From assembly GCF_000014585.1 (NCBI RefSeq), contig NC_008319.1, forward strand, positions 1,612,001-1,676,000: a DNA stretch of 64,000 bases, in the 5' to 3' direction. Made by a program: the position numbers and the translations under genes. Below the pieces are notes generated by a model that was not told the origin of the DNA, searched no databases, and saw only the letters and a list, made by a program, of their open reading frames with translations. Positions 39,736 through 47,010 of this stretch are shown here, piece after piece. Position 1 is the first letter of the stretch. Every line of letters begins with the position of its first letter. Source of the DNA: Synechococcus sp. CC9311 (GTDB taxonomy: Bacteria; Cyanobacteriota; Cyanobacteriia; PCC-6307; Cyanobiaceae).

Positions 39736-40557
39736 ATGGCATCACTTCACGCTGATCTCACTCTTGCTGTTGTTGGACACCTCGAATGGGTTAATTTCCT
39801 TGCCGTTAATGCGTTGCCTGCGCCTGGGCAGATCAGCCGTGCCCATCGCTCGCTAGAAGAGCCAGCTGGAGCCGGAGCTGTCGTGGCTGTTCAACTGGCC
39901 AGGCTTACAGGGCAAAGAGTGGCCTTCTTCACGGCACTCGGGAAGGATGAAATCGGCGAGCGAAGCGAAGCCCGCCTGCTTGAGTTGGGTGTCATACCAA
40001 TCGTTGCCTGGCGTGACCAACCCACCAGACGCGGAATCAGCTTGGTTGATCACAGCAGCGATCGGGCGATCACAGTGATCGGAGAGCGACTAACGCCGGT
40101 CGCCAATGATCCATTGCCCTGGGAGCATCTCGCCGATTGCGATGGGGTGTTCGTCTCAGCAACCGATCCGCAGGGGCTAAGGCTGGCACGAGCAGCCAAA
40201 GTTCTAACGGCAACGCCACGCCTTCGTTTACCGGTTCTTCAAGAGGCAGGTGTCAGTCTCGATGCCTTGATCGGCAGCAATTTGGATCCAGCAGAGTCCA
40301 TCGAAGAGGATGCACTCACCCCAGCGCCAACCTTGCGGATCGCCACGGAAGGAGAGAAGGGAGGGATTCTCATTCCAGGTGGTCGATTTGAAGCCCAACC
40401 TCTCCCTGGCCTCCTCGCAGAAACCTACGGATGCGGCGACAGCTTTGCAGCTGGAGTAACAGCCGGACTCGCTGCAGGATTTGCCATCACTGACGCGATC
40501 AAGCTTGGAGCCCAGTGCGGAGCGACCTGTGCAACACACTTTGGTCCTTACGCCTGA
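39736..40557 (+). CDS. PfkB-family carbohydrate kinase
   Basis: Ribokinase-type fold: the N-terminal LTLAVVGHLEWVNFLAVNA is a variant of the substrate-site strand, AGAGAVVAVQLARLTGQRVA is the GG-N-A-like loop, and AETYGCGDSFAAGVTAGLAA near the C terminus supplies the catalytic Asp in GCGDSF (usually GAGD). The substrate may be a sugar or nucleoside and is not evident. ATG 39736 immediately follows the beta-repeat gene, so they may be co-transcribed. Confidence 0.8.
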   Translation: MASLHADLTLAVVGHLEWVNFLAVNALPAPGQISRAHRSLEEPAGAGAVVAVQLARLTGQRVAFFTALGKDEIGERSEARLLELGVIPIVAWRDQPTRRGISLVDHSSDRAITVIGERLTPVANDPLPWEHLADCDGVFVSATDPQGLRLARAAKVLTATPRLRLPVLQEAGVSLDALIGSNLDPAESIEEDALTPAPTLRIATEGEKGGILIPGGRFEAQPLPGLLAETYGCGDSFAAGVTAGLAAGFAITDAIKLGAQCGATCATHFGPYA

Positions 40558-40951
40558 ACCCAAAAACACAGCGCTCCAGCGGTTTGGGAGACGCTGTTAT
40601 TCATACATACTCCCGAGAAGACAAGAACTAAGCAAAGACGATTGCTATGTCTGATCTGAAGTGTCGTTTTAACGGATACACAGGCGGCAACAAGAGGGGC
40701 CTCTTCACAGAAAGGATGGGGTGCTCAGCACAGATGTCTTTGCCAATCTGCTCGATATGAATTCGGCGTGGACTCCAACCAGCAACAGCAAAGACAGCTA
40801 TATCTGTTGTGATCGCAGCACTGGTGAACCACGCTGAACTGCAAGCCGACTGGCTTTGGTCTATCGCTTTAAGCCCAAAGCAACAAAAAGCCCCCACCAA
40901 TCGGCGGGGGCTTTCTAGTTCAGTTGATCTGAACTTTGGTTGGTTTCCAGA
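40558..40951. other. intergenic region between the PfkB gene and psbA
   Basis: About 390 bases with no well-supported gene. Small plus-strand frames (37 codons at 40647-40760, and two overlapping frames to about 40840) are not convincing. The psbA terminator lies at its right end. Confidence 0.4.
40885..40914 (-). terminator. psbA terminator (first copy)
   Basis: On the minus strand AAAGCCCCC and GGGGGCTTTTT bracket a loop, forming a GC-rich stem with a T-run. The sequence is identical to that after the second psbA. A second stem (AGTTCAG-TTGAT-CTGAACT, 40918-40936) lies between it and the stop codon. Confidence 0.8.
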
Positions 40952-42031
40952 TCAACCGATTGCAGGTGCCTGAAGAGCCACAGGTGTGGACTCAGCAGCT
41001 GCCAGGTCGAGAGGGAAGTTATGAGCGTTGCGCTCGTGCATCACTTCCATGCCGAGACCGGCACGGTTCAACACGTCGGCCCAGGTGTTCAGGACACGGC
41101 CCTGACCATCAAGGATGGACTGGTTGAAGTTGAAGCCGTTCAGGTTGAAGGCCATGGTTGACACGCCAAGGGCGGTGAACCAGATGCCGACAACAGGCCA
41201 GGCTGCAAGGAAGAAGTGAAGGCTACGGCTGTTGTTGAAGGAGGCGTATTGGAAGATCAGGCGACCGAAGTAGCCGTGAGCAGCCACGATGTTGTACGTC
41301 TCTTCTTCTTGGCCGAACTTGTAGCCATAGTTCTGGGACTCGGTCTCGGTTGTTTCACGAACCAAGGAGGAGGTCACCAATGAACCGTGCATGGCGGAGA
41401 ACAGTGAACCACCGAACACACCAGCAACTCCCAGCATGTGGAAGGGGTGCATCAAGATGTTGTGCTCAGCCTGGAACACCAACATGTAGTTGAAGGTTCC
41501 AGAGATGCCCAAAGGCATGGCGTCAGAGAACGAACCCTGACCGAAGGGGTAAACCAGGAACACTGCAGATGCAGCAGCAACAGGTGCGCTGTATGCAACA
41601 CAGATCCAAGGGCGCATGCCCAAGCGGTAGGAAAGTTCCCACTCACGTCCCATATAGGCGTAGATGCCGATCAGGAAGTGGAACACAACCAGTTGGAAAG
41701 GACCGCCGTTGTAGAGCCACTCGTCGAGTGAGGCAGCTTCCCAGATTGGGTAGAAGTGCAAGCCGATGGCGTTGCTGGAAGGAACAACAGCACCAGAAAT
41801 GATGTTGTTGCCATACATCAGTGAACCTGCAACAGGCTCGCGGATGCCGTCGATATCAACCGGAGGTGCGGCGATGAAAGCGACGATGAAGCAGGTGGTA
41901 GCGGCAAGCAGTGTGGGGATCATCAACACACCGAACCAACCGACATACAGACGGTTGTTCGTGGAGGTGACCCAATCACAGAACTGCTGCCAACCGTTAG
42001 CGCCGGAGCGCTGCTGGATGGTGGTAGTCAT
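40952..42031 (-). CDS. psbA: photosystem II D1 protein, E130 form (D1:2)
   Basis: Reaction-centre subunit that binds the P680 chlorophylls, pheophytin, QB and the Mn cluster. Five helices, [40 protein letters not shown] and the full D1 core are seen. Residue 130 is Glu ([11 protein letters not shown]), the mark of the high-light D1:2 type. The C-terminal tail [18 protein letters not shown] contains the CtpA processing site. ATG 42031 is the true start (MTTTIQQ); the frame is open upstream. Length 359. Confidence 0.97.
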
Positions 42032-42216
42032 GAGAACGGAAATAGATGCCTGTAGAGACGAGCCCTTGAGGCGAAATAAGACTGGAAAGATCCAGCTCAC
42101 AAAATTTAATTGAGTTGTGTTGCCTTGTGTTGCGCCTGGGATAGCGACTCATCATCACGCCCATAAAGCCAGCTAATAAGTGGCCTTGTTGCTGTTCGGC
42201 TCATAGCGTTAGCGAG

Positions 42217-43272
42217 ATGCAAACAAGTCGGCGCTTATTTCTGAAGCTGTTAGCAACCACGGCAGTGAGTCCGTCCTTCCTTCATGCCGTGCAAGCAGCG
42301 CCTAACCAAAAAACGTTTGAATCAGTTGCCGTCTTAGAGCGAGGGAATCTTCGCCTTGCATTGATCAGTGATCTCAACGGACCTTATGGATCAACCATCT
42401 ACAGCCCCACCGTTGCAACAGGATTTGATCTGCTCTCTGAACTGAAACCAGATCTGGTGCTTTGCGCAGGAGACATGGTGGCCGGCCAGAAGATCAGCCT
42501 GACGGATTCGCAGCTTGAGGCGATGTGGAGCAGCTTCCAATCCACCATTCTCAATCCCCTCCTTCAGCAGGGGATTGGAATGATCCCAACGATGGGCAAT
42601 CACGACGCATCCAGTCAGAAATGGTCCTCTCAGTACGTGTTTGCAAGAGAACGCCATCAGGCAGAAAGCTTTTGGGCACGTCAGAAGAACCGGCTAGGGC
42701 TCGAGTTCATCGATGCGAAGCAGTACCCATTTCAATTCAGCGTTAAACAACCTGGCTTGTTCGTCATCGTGATTGATGCCTCTTCCGCCACGGTTGATCG
42801 AGGTCAACGGCAGTGGCTTGAGCAAGCACTGACCTCAGAGTCCAGATCTTCCGACGATTGCTGTGTAGTGATGGGACATCTCCCACTGACCGCGATCAGT
42901 CATGGTCGGGATCGTGCCGGTGAGTGCATCGAAGACGCCGTGAACCTCACCGATTTAATGCAACGTCATCGGGTAGACCTCTATCTCTCAGGACATCACC
43001 ACGCCTGGTATCCAGGCGAACTCAGGGGACAGCGATTGCTCAGTCTTGGTGCTATGGGAAACGGACCTCGTCGATTGTTAGGGACGCAACGCACATCTGA
43101 TCCGAGCCTCACACTGCTTGATCTTTTTCCAGCCACAAAAACAGTGCGTGAAACCACATTCAGCTTGAAAACATTGGAGCCCATCAGCCTTAACTCCCTA
43201 CCAAAGCAATTGAGCTCAAAATCGTTTCCAACTTTGGATCGGCGTGACACCAGCTGGTCCTATGGCTCTTAA
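42217..43272 (+). CDS. Tat-type secreted metallophosphoesterase
   Basis: A twin-arginine signal, SRRLFLKLLATTAV (about 4-17), with a cleavage region AVQAAP. The calcineurin-like core has LRLALISDLNG (motif D-x-N in place of D-x-H), LVLCAGDMVAG (GDxx), IGMIPTMGNHDASS (GNHD), VMGHLPL (GH) and LYLSGHHHAWY (GHxH). All metal ligands except the first H are seen. Substrate unknown. It lies between the two psbA genes on the opposite strand. Confidence 0.85.
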   Translation: MQTSRRLFLKLLATTAVSPSFLHAVQAAPNQKTFESVAVLERGNLRLALISDLNGPYGSTIYSPTVATGFDLLSELKPDLVLCAGDMVAGQKISLTDSQLEAMWSSFQSTILNPLLQQGIGMIPTMGNHDASSQKWSSQYVFARERHQAESFWARQKNRLGLEFIDAKQYPFQFSVKQPGLFVIVIDASSATVDRGQRQWLEQALTSESRSSDDCCVVMGHLPLTAISHGRDRAGECIEDAVNLTDLMQRHRVDLYLSGHHHAWYPGELRGQRLLSLGAMGNGPRRLLGTQRTSDPSLTLLDLFPATKTVRETTFSLKTLEPISLNSLPKQLSSKSFPTLDRRDTSWSYGS

Positions 43273-43299
43273 AGACGCTTCCCCTCTGAGTAATACATA

Positions 43300-43330
43300 A
43301 AAAAGCCCCCACCAATCGGCGGGGGCTTTC
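43300..43330 (-). terminator. psbA terminator (second copy)
   Basis: Same stem, loop and flanks as 40885-40914, including the following AGTTCAG/CTGAACT hairpin. On the minus strand it ends in a T-run, so it serves the D1:1 gene; it may also stop the convergent metallophosphoesterase. Confidence 0.8.
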
Positions 43331-43366
43331 TAGTTCAGTTGATCTGAACTTTGGTTGGTTTCCAGA

Positions 43367-44443
43367 TCAACCGATTGCAGGTGCCTGAAGAGCCACAGGT
43401 GTGGACTCAACAGTTGCAAGGTCGAGGGGGAAGTTATGAGCGTTGCGCTCGTGCATCACTTCCATGCCGAGACCGGCACGGTTCACCATGTCGGCCCAGG
43501 TGTTCAGGACGCGGCCCTGACTATCAAGGATGGACTGGTTGAAGTTGAAGCCGTTCAGGTTGAAGGCCATGGTTGACACGCCCATGGACGTAAACCAGAT
43601 GCCGACAACAGGCCAGGCTCCAAGCAAGAAGTGAAGGCTACGGCTGTTGTTGAAGGAGGCGTATTGGAAGATCAGGCGACCGAAGTAGCCGTGAGCAGCC
43701 ACGATGTTGTACGTCTCTTCTTCTTGGCCGAACTTGTAGCCATAGTTGTGGGACTCGTTCTCGGTTGTTTCACGAACCAAGGAGGAGGTCACCAGTGAGC
43801 CATGCATGGCGGAGAACAGTGAACCACCGAACACACCAGCAACTCCCAGCATGTGGAAGGGGTGCATCAGGATGTTGTGCTCAGCCTGGAACACCAACAT
43901 GAAGTTGAAGGTTCCAGAGATGCCCAAAGGCATGCCATCAGAGAACGAACCCTGACCGAAGGGATACACCAGGAAAACAGCCATGGCTGCAGACAGCGGA
44001 GCGCTGTATGCAACACAGATCCAAGGGCGCATGCCCAAGCGGTAGGAAAGTTCCCACTGACGGCCCATATAGGCCGAAATACCAATCAGGAAGTGGAAAA
44101 CAACCAGCTGATAGGTGCCGCCGTTGTAGAGCCACTCATCGAGTGAGGCAGCATCCCAAATTGGGTAGAAGTGCAAGCCAATGGCGTTGCTGGAAGGAAC
44201 AACAGCACCAGAAATGATGTTGTTGCCATAAAGCAGTGAGCCAGCGACAGGCTCGCGGATGCCGTCGATATCAACCGGAGGTGCGGCGATGAAAGCGACG
44301 ATGAAGCAGGTGGTAGCGGCAAGCAGACAAGGAATCATCAGCACACCAAACCAACCGATATAAATACGGTTGTTGGTATCTGTGACCCACTGACAAAAGC
44401 TTTGCCAGCTGCTTAAGCGACCGCTGCGAACGGCAGTAGCCAT
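43367..44443 (-). CDS. psbA: photosystem II D1 protein, Q130 form (D1:1)
   Basis: D1 of the standard-light type: [11 protein letters not shown] gives Gln at the position equivalent to 130. Otherwise nearly identical to the copy at 40952, apart from the N-terminal ~30 residues ([20 protein letters not shown]) and scattered changes (Pro110 to Thr, Glu98 to Asp). Length 358. The last 100 codons and the 3' flank are almost the same as in the E130 gene. ATG 44443; the 5' region carries the palindrome at 44569-44603. Confidence 0.97.
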
Positions 44444-44568
44444 GAGAAAAAAATAAGAACGGGATCGATCACTCCATCCTTAAAAGGACAAATGATCGAG
44501 CTCAAGATGATGAAAAGACCTCCACAATTCAAGAGAAACAAACGGATCTCATCATCTCGACAACATTG

Positions 44569-44603
44569 TTCATGACAACTTCATGAATTGTTCATGAAGT
44601 TGT
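44569..44603. promoter_or_regulatory. palindrome with three TCATGA blocks at 11-bp spacing
   Basis: TCATGA occurs at 44570, 44581 and 44592, exactly one helical turn apart. The second and third blocks form a perfect 13-bp inverted repeat (ACAACTTCATGAA / TTCATGAAGTTGT, 3-base centre). It lies 126-160 bases upstream of the D1:1 psbA start and immediately 3' of the DUF697 gene's stop, so it could be an operator or a terminator-like element without T-run. Confidence 0.6.
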
Positions 44604-44604
44604 G

Positions 44605-45945
44605 TCAAGCACCCGCGTATCTCTGCGTTTTGAGCCATTCCTTTGCCTGATCGGCAAAACCGGAGAGATCCAAGCGTTCACGCTCTGCAGCCTTCGCCAC
44701 CAACAACGGTGCCTGACGCTTGAGATCGTCCAAATCAGGCTGGGTAACTCCGGCATTCAGAGCCATCCAATCAGCCATTGATGCGCCCACAACTCTTGTG
44801 AGATAAGCAGCGCTGAGGCCTTGAATCAAACCTGCCGCCAACCAAGTACCACCGTCAAGTTTGGCCATGCCAAGCAAGGCTTGACCACTCCACTCCACAA
44901 CGCCCTGCCCAAGAGCTGCAGTCCCCAATTGGCGCGCCACAACCTGCAACACCTCAGAGCTCCAGGAGCAGCCCCAGATCTCAGCCATTTCCTTCACCAT
45001 CAGGCCATTCACTACAGCCACAGCAAGAAGATCAACGCTTGGAACAGGGGAGGCAATCACCACACCCGCCACAATCCACTGACTCCGTTGAAGCAGGGAG
45101 CGGAATCGCTCACGACGCAACTGTTCTAGTTCTGCTTGCCAACGGCGATGAAGTGAAGTCAACAGGCGTTGCTTGGTGATCTCGCGGCTCCGAGACGGTT
45201 GGGCAAAATGACGTCGCACTGGAAGCAAGCCCCGCCGTAGATCAGCTGACTCCCCGCTCCAGAACAACAGTCGATCGCACCATGGCTTAGGTAACTGACA
45301 ACTCAAGGCCTCCTGTCGTGCTTCACGAGAGTCGTGGACAGAATCCTTGATCAGCAACCAAGCAGGTTGATCCGTGGGCAATTGTTCCAGCCGCAAAAGA
45401 TCAGCTGCCCTTAGAGGCATTGGAAGTCCGTACAAGATCACATCAAGCGACTCAAGCTCCTGAGGCCAGCTCCAGGCATCAGCAACCACTGGCAATGGCT
45501 TGGCAATGCACAGCTCAAGTGAATGGGAACCCTCCAAAGCGGTGTGAAGCTCTGAAGTACTCGGATGAGTCCCGCCCTCACTGGTAACCACCCCCACGCT
45601 GAGAGGTGAGTGCTGAGCTTTCAAGCGGTCAAGCTCCTGTTCGCGAGGAGATCGCAAACCATCGAGACCTAACGACAGCTCAAGCTCTGTGAACTGCGCC
45701 AGCACCTTCTCACAACGTCGGATCCAACCAGGGATTGAGGACGGCTCTGAAAATTGAGCAGGCCTAGAGGAGCGGGACACCCACCAGATCCCAGCCCCCA
45801 AGGCCAGGAAGCCTGCGCCACCACCAGGAAGGTGAACAAGGTCGCTGAACAGCCAACTCCCAAATGCGAGGGTTCCTCCAGCCAAAGCAAGTTTCCCTGC
45901 GATGGATGGAATCAGCTTGATGGTGCTGATTGATGGAACCGGCAT
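44605..45945 (-). CDS. DUF697-containing membrane protein (446 aa)
   Basis: Two N-terminal hydrophobic segments (about 15-57) precede a region resembling a GTPase-like fold that lacks the P-loop (GxxxxGKS/T) and DxxG motifs. The C-terminal ~150 residues are the DUF697 domain: SQWIVAGVVIASPVPSVDLL then AVAVVNGLMVKEMAEIWGC and VGASMADWMALNAGV. Cyanobacterial homologues are often described as GTPase-like but are probably degenerate. ATG 45945 (MPVPSIS). Function unknown. Confidence 0.7.
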   Translation of the reverse strand: MPVPSISTIKLIPSIAGKLALAGGTLAFGSWLFSDLVHLPGGGAGFLALGAGIWWVSRSSRPAQFSEPSSIPGWIRRCEKVLAQFTELELSLGLDGLRSPREQELDRLKAQHSPLSVGVVTSEGGTHPSTSELHTALEGSHSLELCIAKPLPVVADAWSWPQELESLDVILYGLPMPLRAADLLRLEQLPTDQPAWLLIKDSVHDSREARQEALSCQLPKPWCDRLLFWSGESADLRRGLLPVRRHFAQPSRSREITKQRLLTSLHRRWQAELEQLRRERFRSLLQRSQWIVAGVVIASPVPSVDLLAVAVVNGLMVKEMAEIWGCSWSSEVLQVVARQLGTAALGQGVVEWSGQALLGMAKLDGGTWLAAGLIQGLSAAYLTRVVGASMADWMALNAGVTQPDLDDLKRQAPLLVAKAAERERLDLSGFADQAKEWLKTQRYAGA

Positions 45946-46104
45946 CAGCACGACAAATCCATGACTTGGGGCTTTCTTAGCTCAACCTGACTAGTCAGGG
46001 CCAGTGCTTGCGCACCTATAAAAACTGGCAGCGTCCACTCTTTCCTAACAACTTTACCTCTGATCGAGGTATTCATATGGTATGGAGACCTGTGCCTGAC
46101 ATCG

Positions 46105-47010
46105 ATGGCCCGCGATCGTCGTCATGAGGTCACACGTGTCCTAATGGTGGCCCTCACCATCAACGTGGCCATGACGTTGCTCAAAATGGTGGTGGGCATA
46201 GCAAGTGGATCTTTGGCTGTGATTGCTGATGCGATGCACAGCGCAACCGACGCCCTCTCAAGCTTGACAGGACTGATCACGAACGGGCTGTCGGATCCGA
46301 AACCAGATCGAGATCATCCCTACGGACATCACAAATATGAAGGAATTGGAGCTCTGGCGGTCGCCGGTTTCATCTTCTTCACCGCGATCGAAATCCTGAT
46401 CACCTCAAGCGAACGACTCACTAAGGGATTGCCTGAACTGCGGATCAATGCAACTGAGCTATTGCTTCTGCTCGTAGTGCTCGTCTTCAATCTTCTTCTT
46501 GCCGGTTACGAGCGCCGGGAGGGGCGCCGATTAAATAGCCCGCTGCTCCTCGCCGATGCCCACCACACCACAAGTGACATCTGGACCACGATGATTGTGC
46601 TGGTAGGCCTAACTGGGGCTTGGCTACTCAAGATCAGCTGGCTAGACGTCGCCCTAGCCATTCCACTTGCAGTGTTTTTGATCCGTGTCTGCTGGCAGGT
46701 TTTACGCGACAACCTCCCTTGGCTTGTGGATCACATAGCGATTGCACCCGAGGCGATTAACGAAGCGGCCTTAGGGGTACCTGGAGTTCTTAATTGCCAT
46801 GACATCGCCAGCAGAGGAGTTCTGGGTCAACAGGTGTTCATTGACATGCACATGGTTGTGGATGTCGATGACTTGATTGCGGCTCATCAAATCACTGAGC
46901 GAGTGGAAGAGCGCCTGGAATCCCGCTTCGGCCCTGTTCGCTGCACCATTCATCTCGAACCTCGGGACTATGTCGAACAGGTGATCACCTTCCGTGGAAC
47001 CCACGGTTAA
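46105..47010 (+). CDS. cation diffusion facilitator (CDF) transporter
   Basis: A metal/H+ antiporter. Six helices: VLMVALTINVAMTLLKMVVG, then IADAMHSATDALSSLTGLIT with the His/Asp metal site HSATD, LAVAGFIFFTAIEILITSSE, and LLLADAHHTTSDIWTTMIVL with the second site (AHHTTSD). A soluble C-terminal domain (GVLNCHDIASR, VFIDMHMVVDVDDLIAAHQI, CTIHLEP) follows. Zn2+ or Fe2+/Mn2+ specificity cannot be told. ATG 46105. Confidence 0.9.
   Translation: MARDRRHEVTRVLMVALTINVAMTLLKMVVGIASGSLAVIADAMHSATDALSSLTGLITNGLSDPKPDRDHPYGHHKYEGIGALAVAGFIFFTAIEILITSSERLTKGLPELRINATELLLLLVVLVFNLLLAGYERREGRRLNSPLLLADAHHTTSDIWTTMIVLVGLTGAWLLKISWLDVALAIPLAVFLIRVCWQVLRDNLPWLVDHIAIAPEAINEAALGVPGVLNCHDIASRGVLGQQVFIDMHMVVDVDDLIAAHQITERVEERLESRFGPVRCTIHLEPRDYVEQVITFRGTHG

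Follow-up and report, generated by a model that had tools for sequence, protein, structure and literature searches.

A conserved three-block tandem array upstream of the D1:1 psbA gene of marine Synechococcus, at a fixed distance from a predicted −10 hexamer

The intergenic DNA between the D1:1 form of psbA and the gene next upstream, which encodes a DUF697 protein, carries in Synechococcus sp. CC9311 an array of three short tandem blocks that, judging from its conservation among relatives, is a genuine and conserved part of the psbA D1:1 promoter. In the window, i.e. the whole stretch of 64,000 nucleotides that was analysed, TCATGA occurs in this intergenic DNA at positions 44570, 44581 and 44592, so that the three blocks are 11 bp apart. 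On the minus strand, from which psbA is read, block 1, the distal one with respect to psbA (44591 to 44598), and block 2, 11 bp away from it (44580 to 44587), both consist of TTCATGAA; the full 8-mer is confined to these two blocks, as block 3, the proximal one, which follows at another 11 bp (44569 to 44576), reads GTCATGAA. The psbA gene itself (43367 to 44443, minus strand; Pfam Photo_RC match) is of the D1:1 form, with Gln130, and the array is located 126 to 160 bp upstream of its ATG, which begins at 44443. The DUF697 gene (44605 to 45951, minus strand; Pfam DUF697 match) ends with the stop codon at 44605 to 44607, next to the array. Blocks 1 and 2 fall within an inverted repeat (44575 to 44603) with two 13-nt arms, 44575 to 44587 and 44591 to 44603, that are 100% complementary and are separated by a 3-nt centre. 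All these elements had been described in a sequence-only reading of this DNA, namely, the three TCATGA words at 11-bp intervals and the inverted repeat with 13-bp arms upstream of the D1:1 psbA, along with their placement relative to the psbA start and the DUF697 stop, and both the elements and the coordinates agree with our own analysis.

When the window was searched for the three-block pattern with up to three mismatches, a single match was obtained, without any mismatches, compared to the expectation of 0.09, and among 100 shuffled windows, 8 contained at least one such match. Neither single TTCATGAA words (2 found, 2.35 expected) nor the two-block pattern with up to two mismatches (7 found, 4.65 expected) were enriched in the window. 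In the whole genome, TCATGA-N5-TCATGA is present in 4 exact places, two of these within the array, and in 11 more at one mismatch. Thus, given that single words and pairs are not enriched, it is the triple, and most of all its conservation in relatives, that argues against a chance origin.

A DUF697 orthologue was identified in 30 of the 31 genomes of the same genus (the window's own genome included), and in all 30, psbA is the next gene on the same strand. The gap between the two genes contains TTCATGAA-N3-TTCATGAA, with one mismatch at most, in 29 of these 30 genomes; relative L030 has 3 mismatches to the pattern, with TTTACAAA as its block 2. At the same threshold, each of the 24 genus genomes that are at least 90% complete has the pattern in exactly one place, whereas the control with the reversed pattern yielded no matches in any of the 24. 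Across the family, 54 of 251 genomes match the pattern, 45 of them at psbA (16 in the window's own genus, 11 in g5, 10 in g10, 7 in g65 and 1 in g78) and 9 elsewhere, the latter all in genomes no larger than 1.9 Mb, with no psbA within the 3-kb locus. In the other genera, a match at one mismatch is not universal (11 of 16 genomes in g5, 10 of 15 in g10, 7 of 9 in g65 and 1 of 4 in g78). The sequence-only reading had proposed a search for the repeat upstream of psbA in relatives and named its absence there as one of two outcomes that would speak against a regulatory site; the repeat proved to be present in all 24 genus genomes and in four further genera.

To compare the blocks position by position, 79 psbA upstream sequences were reduced to 69 by removing those that share the last 160 bases (L079 was excluded as the same stretch as L103); 61 of these non-redundant sequences have the array and 8 do not (L065, L066, L075, L083, L084, L086, L087 and L089). 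The 61 sequences are related to one another and, therefore, their number is not a count of independent events. In block 1, TTCATGA is invariant in 61 of 61 sequences. Block 2 is the exact 8-mer in 42, and the 19 deviants differ by small changes, being mostly TTGATGAA (the commonest), TTCATAAA or TTTATGAA. Block 3 deviates from the exact 8-mer in 35 of the 61 sequences, and its offset from the start of block 1 is +22 in 26 sequences and +23 in 35. The spacers and flanks of the array are variable, and many of the sequences show a weaker CTTCA about 10 bp before block 1.

The blocks are positioned at a constant distance from a predicted −10 hexamer, which in the window is TCATCT (44505 to 44510, minus strand) and lies 66 bp away from where block 3 starts. 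Among the 61 sequences, TANNNT is found at exactly 66 bp from the block 3 start in 52, from four of the five genera (here, group g10 takes in two named records, L137 and L141, with no genus handle assigned), compared to a background rate of 0.3% per offset at other offsets; the lone g78 sequence has TANNNT at 67. A 1-bp shift of block 3 is accompanied by an equal shift in how far the hexamer is from block 1 (88 or 89). When groups are compared, the blocks average 92% identity and the 58 bp that separate block 3 from the hexamer average 36%. Other distances are far less constant: in the 30 same-genus loci, the array is between −7 and 83 bp from the DUF697 stop (standard deviation 23) and block 1 is 153 to 174 bp from the ATG, and in the 61 sequences, the hexamer is 35 to 102 bp from the ATG. 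Because the distance to the DUF697 stop and that from the hexamer to the ATG both vary, the array appears to be locked to the promoter, and the 66-bp lock despite the divergent intervening DNA is consistent with a DNA operator that keeps its helical phase relative to the D1:1 promoter. A fixed helical distance to the promoter, as in sites of class-I-type activators, is thus observed, with the hexamer taken as a predicted −10. An atypical hexamer (TCATCT, TCATGT or TCATCC) is found at this place in the window's own sequence and in those of 7 close relatives, which weakens the −10 assignment there. Between the hexamer and the gene, the D1:1 leader, inspected by eye in the window (44443 to 44505, minus strand) and in relatives L014 to L128, can form a hairpin with lineage-specific letters, and a pyrimidine-rich CCGTTCTC-like word that, also by eye, is common to the D1:2 copies is located between this hairpin and the psbA ATG.

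The sequence-only reading interpreted the site as one for a cooperative regulator of psbA, as opposed to a simple terminator, with emphasis on the palindrome with 13-bp arms. The first part of this interpretation is strongly supported by comparison, the array, the gene and the distance to the predicted −10 being shared by five genera, whereas the palindrome does not stand up as the key feature. Its outer five pairs hold together well only in the nine closest sequences. In the inner 8-bp stem of blocks 1 and 2, there are 22 broken pairs, in 21 of the 61 sequences, and no two-sided repair was detected in any of the 61, with three one-sided G-T cases. For the complete 13-pair stem in 34 representative sequences, 79.9% of the cells are paired compared to 80.6% in shuffles (407 of 500 shuffles were as high), and covariation amounts to two-sided changes in 8 cells, none of them outside the outer five pairs, compared to 7.7 in shuffles. 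Each 8-bp block is a palindrome in itself and the blocks are in tandem, so that the perfect palindrome is most plausibly a by-product of this arrangement. By these comparisons, the 13-bp palindrome looks incidental, and the tandem array is the conserved feature.

The same observations bear on the possibility that the repeat acts in the DUF697 transcript as a terminating or stabilising hairpin. In the window, the array begins directly after the DUF697 stop, and few shuffles match the folding of the RNA strand (3 of 200 were as good; z = −2.57), as would be expected of such a hairpin. However, the pairing and covariation of the 13-pair stem do not exceed those in shuffles, the inner stem is broken in a third or so of the relatives (21 of 61) without two-sided repair, the distance to the DUF697 stop varies by some 90 bp (−7 to 83), and there is no T-run: the search for intrinsic terminators (a G+C-rich stem followed by a T-run) found 0 sites in 44400 to 44900 on both strands, in accord with the sequence-only reading, which had noted that no T-run follows the repeat. 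Furthermore, DUF697 is adjacent to psbA without a tandem array in eight loci from other genera, one of which (L086) has an inverted form. All this makes a transcript hairpin highly improbable. A search of Rfam over 40500 to 46500 gave six matches up to E = 1, all under the gathering score and none overlapping the array. In L086, from a g6 genome, the gap between DUF697 and psbA is occupied by a long inverted repeat around two TTCATGAA words.

The array is associated mainly with one form of D1. Among the array-bearing psbA genes, 46 were readable at residue 130, which is Gln in 42 and Glu, the D1:2 residue, in 4; thus, what the array accompanies is the psbA position that follows DUF697, and this position is nearly always, though not invariably, occupied by the Gln130 form. 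The four array-bearing Glu130 genes after DUF697 (L011, L018, L020 and L103) look as if D1:2-like sequence had overwritten the D1:1 place. The window's genome encodes one D1:1 and three D1:2 psbA genes, and the array is missing upstream of all three of the latter, one of which has a single TTCATGAA. The second psbA gene of the window (40952 to 42031, minus strand; the start codon was chosen, and the open frame runs to 42100), with Glu in the GREWE stretch, is of the D1:2 form and lacks the array.

For those genera of the family sample that have small genomes, which we take to be Prochlorococcus, the pattern search, with a minority of the psbA upstream sequences read singly, gave no psbA-linked match. 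As to expression, PMC3441193 reports that the D1:1 gene of WH7803 is repressed at noon, with the opposite behaviour of the D1:2 genes, and that in Prochlorococcus PCC 9511, a single D1:1-like gene shows a D1:2-like pattern. The contrast with Prochlorococcus, a correlation that involves one expression study, agrees with the interpretation of the array as a regulator site. The array is comparable to the psbA family switching in WH7803 and S. elongatus in that it is located at D1:1, the copy that falls in strong light. Among the literature matches listed, there was neither a cis element for D1:1/D1:2 switching in marine Synechococcus nor an earlier description of a conserved array at psbA D1:1.

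Within array-bearing genomes, the psbA site stands alone as a strong match. A 46-position profile was applied to 19 genomes, and each of the 14 with the array yielded a single strong place (E-values of 1e-8 to 1e-11); among the 150 first-look candidates scored per genome, the next non-overlapping place in these 14 had an E-value of 0.075 or worse. We opened 11 other places, 9 from the profile and 2 from the TCATGA-N5-TCATGA pattern. A wider target set was rejected, the profile hits ranking below psbA being weak, with five of the places within long reading frames (L002, L181, L182, L184 and L185) and one at a gene start (L001). A single TTCATGAAG block was seen at the same place in five close relatives (L176 to L180), overlapping the ATG of a short frame that consists of 14 codons in four of them and 74 in the fifth and is not clearly coding.

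The strict three-block pattern was found in 17 stretches of named genomes, of which 12 are at picocyanobacterial psbA and 5 are elsewhere, in unrelated bacteria or other cyanobacteria. When the profile was run against 195 genomes of the class, 16 matched at E = 0.001, 9 array-bearing members of the family and 7 genomes outside it; three of these 7 matches were inspected, and none is at psbA, with two being the same stretches as L138 and L144. Given such stretches in other bacteria, the tandem word is not confined to psbA across all bacteria. Tandem TTCATGAA-like blocks with the 11-bp period were observed between unrelated genes in L134 (577 to 606), L144/L305, L138/L307 and L306; in L134, from Paenibacillus, they are flanked by a catalase-looking gene (as read from the frame) and a regulator gene. 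Phage origin of the array was considered and rejected, with 0 exact matches to the strict three-block pattern in viral contigs and two 31-bp matches to phage records at E = 0.8.

Taken as a DNA element, the array is probably a tandem operator, that is, a regulator-binding array of the D1:1 psbA promoter that drives low-light D1. The three blocks, with an 11-bp period and on one face of the helix, would serve one psbA promoter, that of D1:1 in nearly all relatives, from a position roughly 70 to 100 bp before the predicted transcription start that is fixed by the 66 bp to the −10 hexamer. A regulator would bind the blocks side by side and, like a class-I activator, would contact RNA polymerase, and, when bound, would run the low-light D1 gene; in strong light, binding would be lost, D1:1 would fall, and the array-free D1:2 copies would rise. 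Here, we infer the identity of the hexamer as the true −10, an activating and not a repressing role of the regulator, and light as its signal. The single strong site per genome and the helical phase that is kept both among the blocks and in their distance to the hexamer could also be explained if the blocks acted via DNA shape, through phased flexible TG/CA steps or a nucleoid protein, with no dedicated sequence-specific regulator. However, the base conservation of block 1 (TTCATGA in 61 of 61 sequences) seems to be stricter than shape should need, and we regard this explanation as quite improbable.

If the array is an operator for a dedicated regulator, its layout points to a particular class of proteins. 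Tandem operators of the OmpR/PhoB type (Pho box type) are direct repeats with an 11-bp period that include several half sites and are located upstream of the promoter. The array resembles these operators in consisting of direct repeats, at 0, 11 and 22 or 23, i.e. with a period of about 11 bp, and differs from them in that each block is itself palindromic; a match to a known consensus was not established. From the period and the direct-repeat layout, the regulator is probably an OmpR/PhoB-type response regulator. Against this, a response regulator with a global role should recognise more places in a genome than the one strong site that is seen. In a comparison of OmpR-type regulators (117 loci from 23 genomes, with 116 usable frames; the sets are complete for 6 genomes only, G000, G010, G034, G035, G053 and G054), none of the orthologue groups separates array-bearing from array-free genomes, and a PhoB-like group was not seen in the window's own genome. 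One candidate from that genome, an OmpR-type regulator with a degenerate receiver (L192/L273, G000:C1:747590-748270), was matched at E = 1e-30 in 135 of the 251 family genomes, mostly larger ones among those listed, and was rejected, as it was not found at this threshold in the array-bearing G023.

Among known regulators of this kind, the one to be weighed is RpaB. PMC13421787 describes activation by RpaB of the low-light psbA1 gene of S. elongatus from the HLR1 element at about −66 to −45 and gives the HLR1 consensus as KTTACAWW-N2-KTTACAWW; the parts of PMC6331805 and PMC10805033 that cover the HLR1 background do not give the letters of the RpaA site. The array could accordingly be conceived of as a variant site of this known light regulator. 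Like HLR1, it lies upstream of a low-light psbA promoter and is built of 8-bp direct repeats spaced by roughly one turn of the helix, but it differs from HLR1 in the word, TTCATGAA, in the period of 11 rather than 10 bp, in the number of blocks (three), in its location farther upstream (predicted to be about −70 to −100) and in being one strong site per genome compared to the large target set of HLR1. In all 61 array promoters (the last 257 bp before the ATG), HLR1 with its 2-bp gap is absent, the best match having at least 4 mismatches. Elsewhere in the window's genome, HLR1-like sites occur at 4 places with one mismatch and, therefore, RpaB probably keeps its usual site. One site of this kind (L284) is 34 bp upstream of an hli-looking gene, as read from the frame. 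Conversely, two proteins in the window's genome score above the NCBIfam cut-off for RpaB, and, in two relatives only, exact HLR1 half sites replace individual blocks, namely, TTTACAAA as block 2 in L030 and its reverse complement as block 3 in L126, so that RpaB or a paralogue stay candidates. On balance, a variant RpaB site appears possible but doubtful. The two RpaB-like proteins (L187, G000:C1:2277483, and L197, G000:C1:123354) differ in the letters of the recognition-helix region. Somewhat more speculatively, a regulator with essentially one target, perhaps the second RpaB-like protein with a changed recognition helix, might control the exchange between D1:1 and D1:2 via the array, and loss of the array in Prochlorococcus might have made D1:1 noon-peaking; we consider this scenario unlikely.

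Whichever protein would bind it, the array interpreted as a tandem operator of the D1:1 promoter concerns the exchange of D1 forms, one of the principal means by which these abundant phototrophs adjust to changing light. A short, near-invariant element at a fixed distance from a predicted promoter makes the cis control of D1:1 directly testable.
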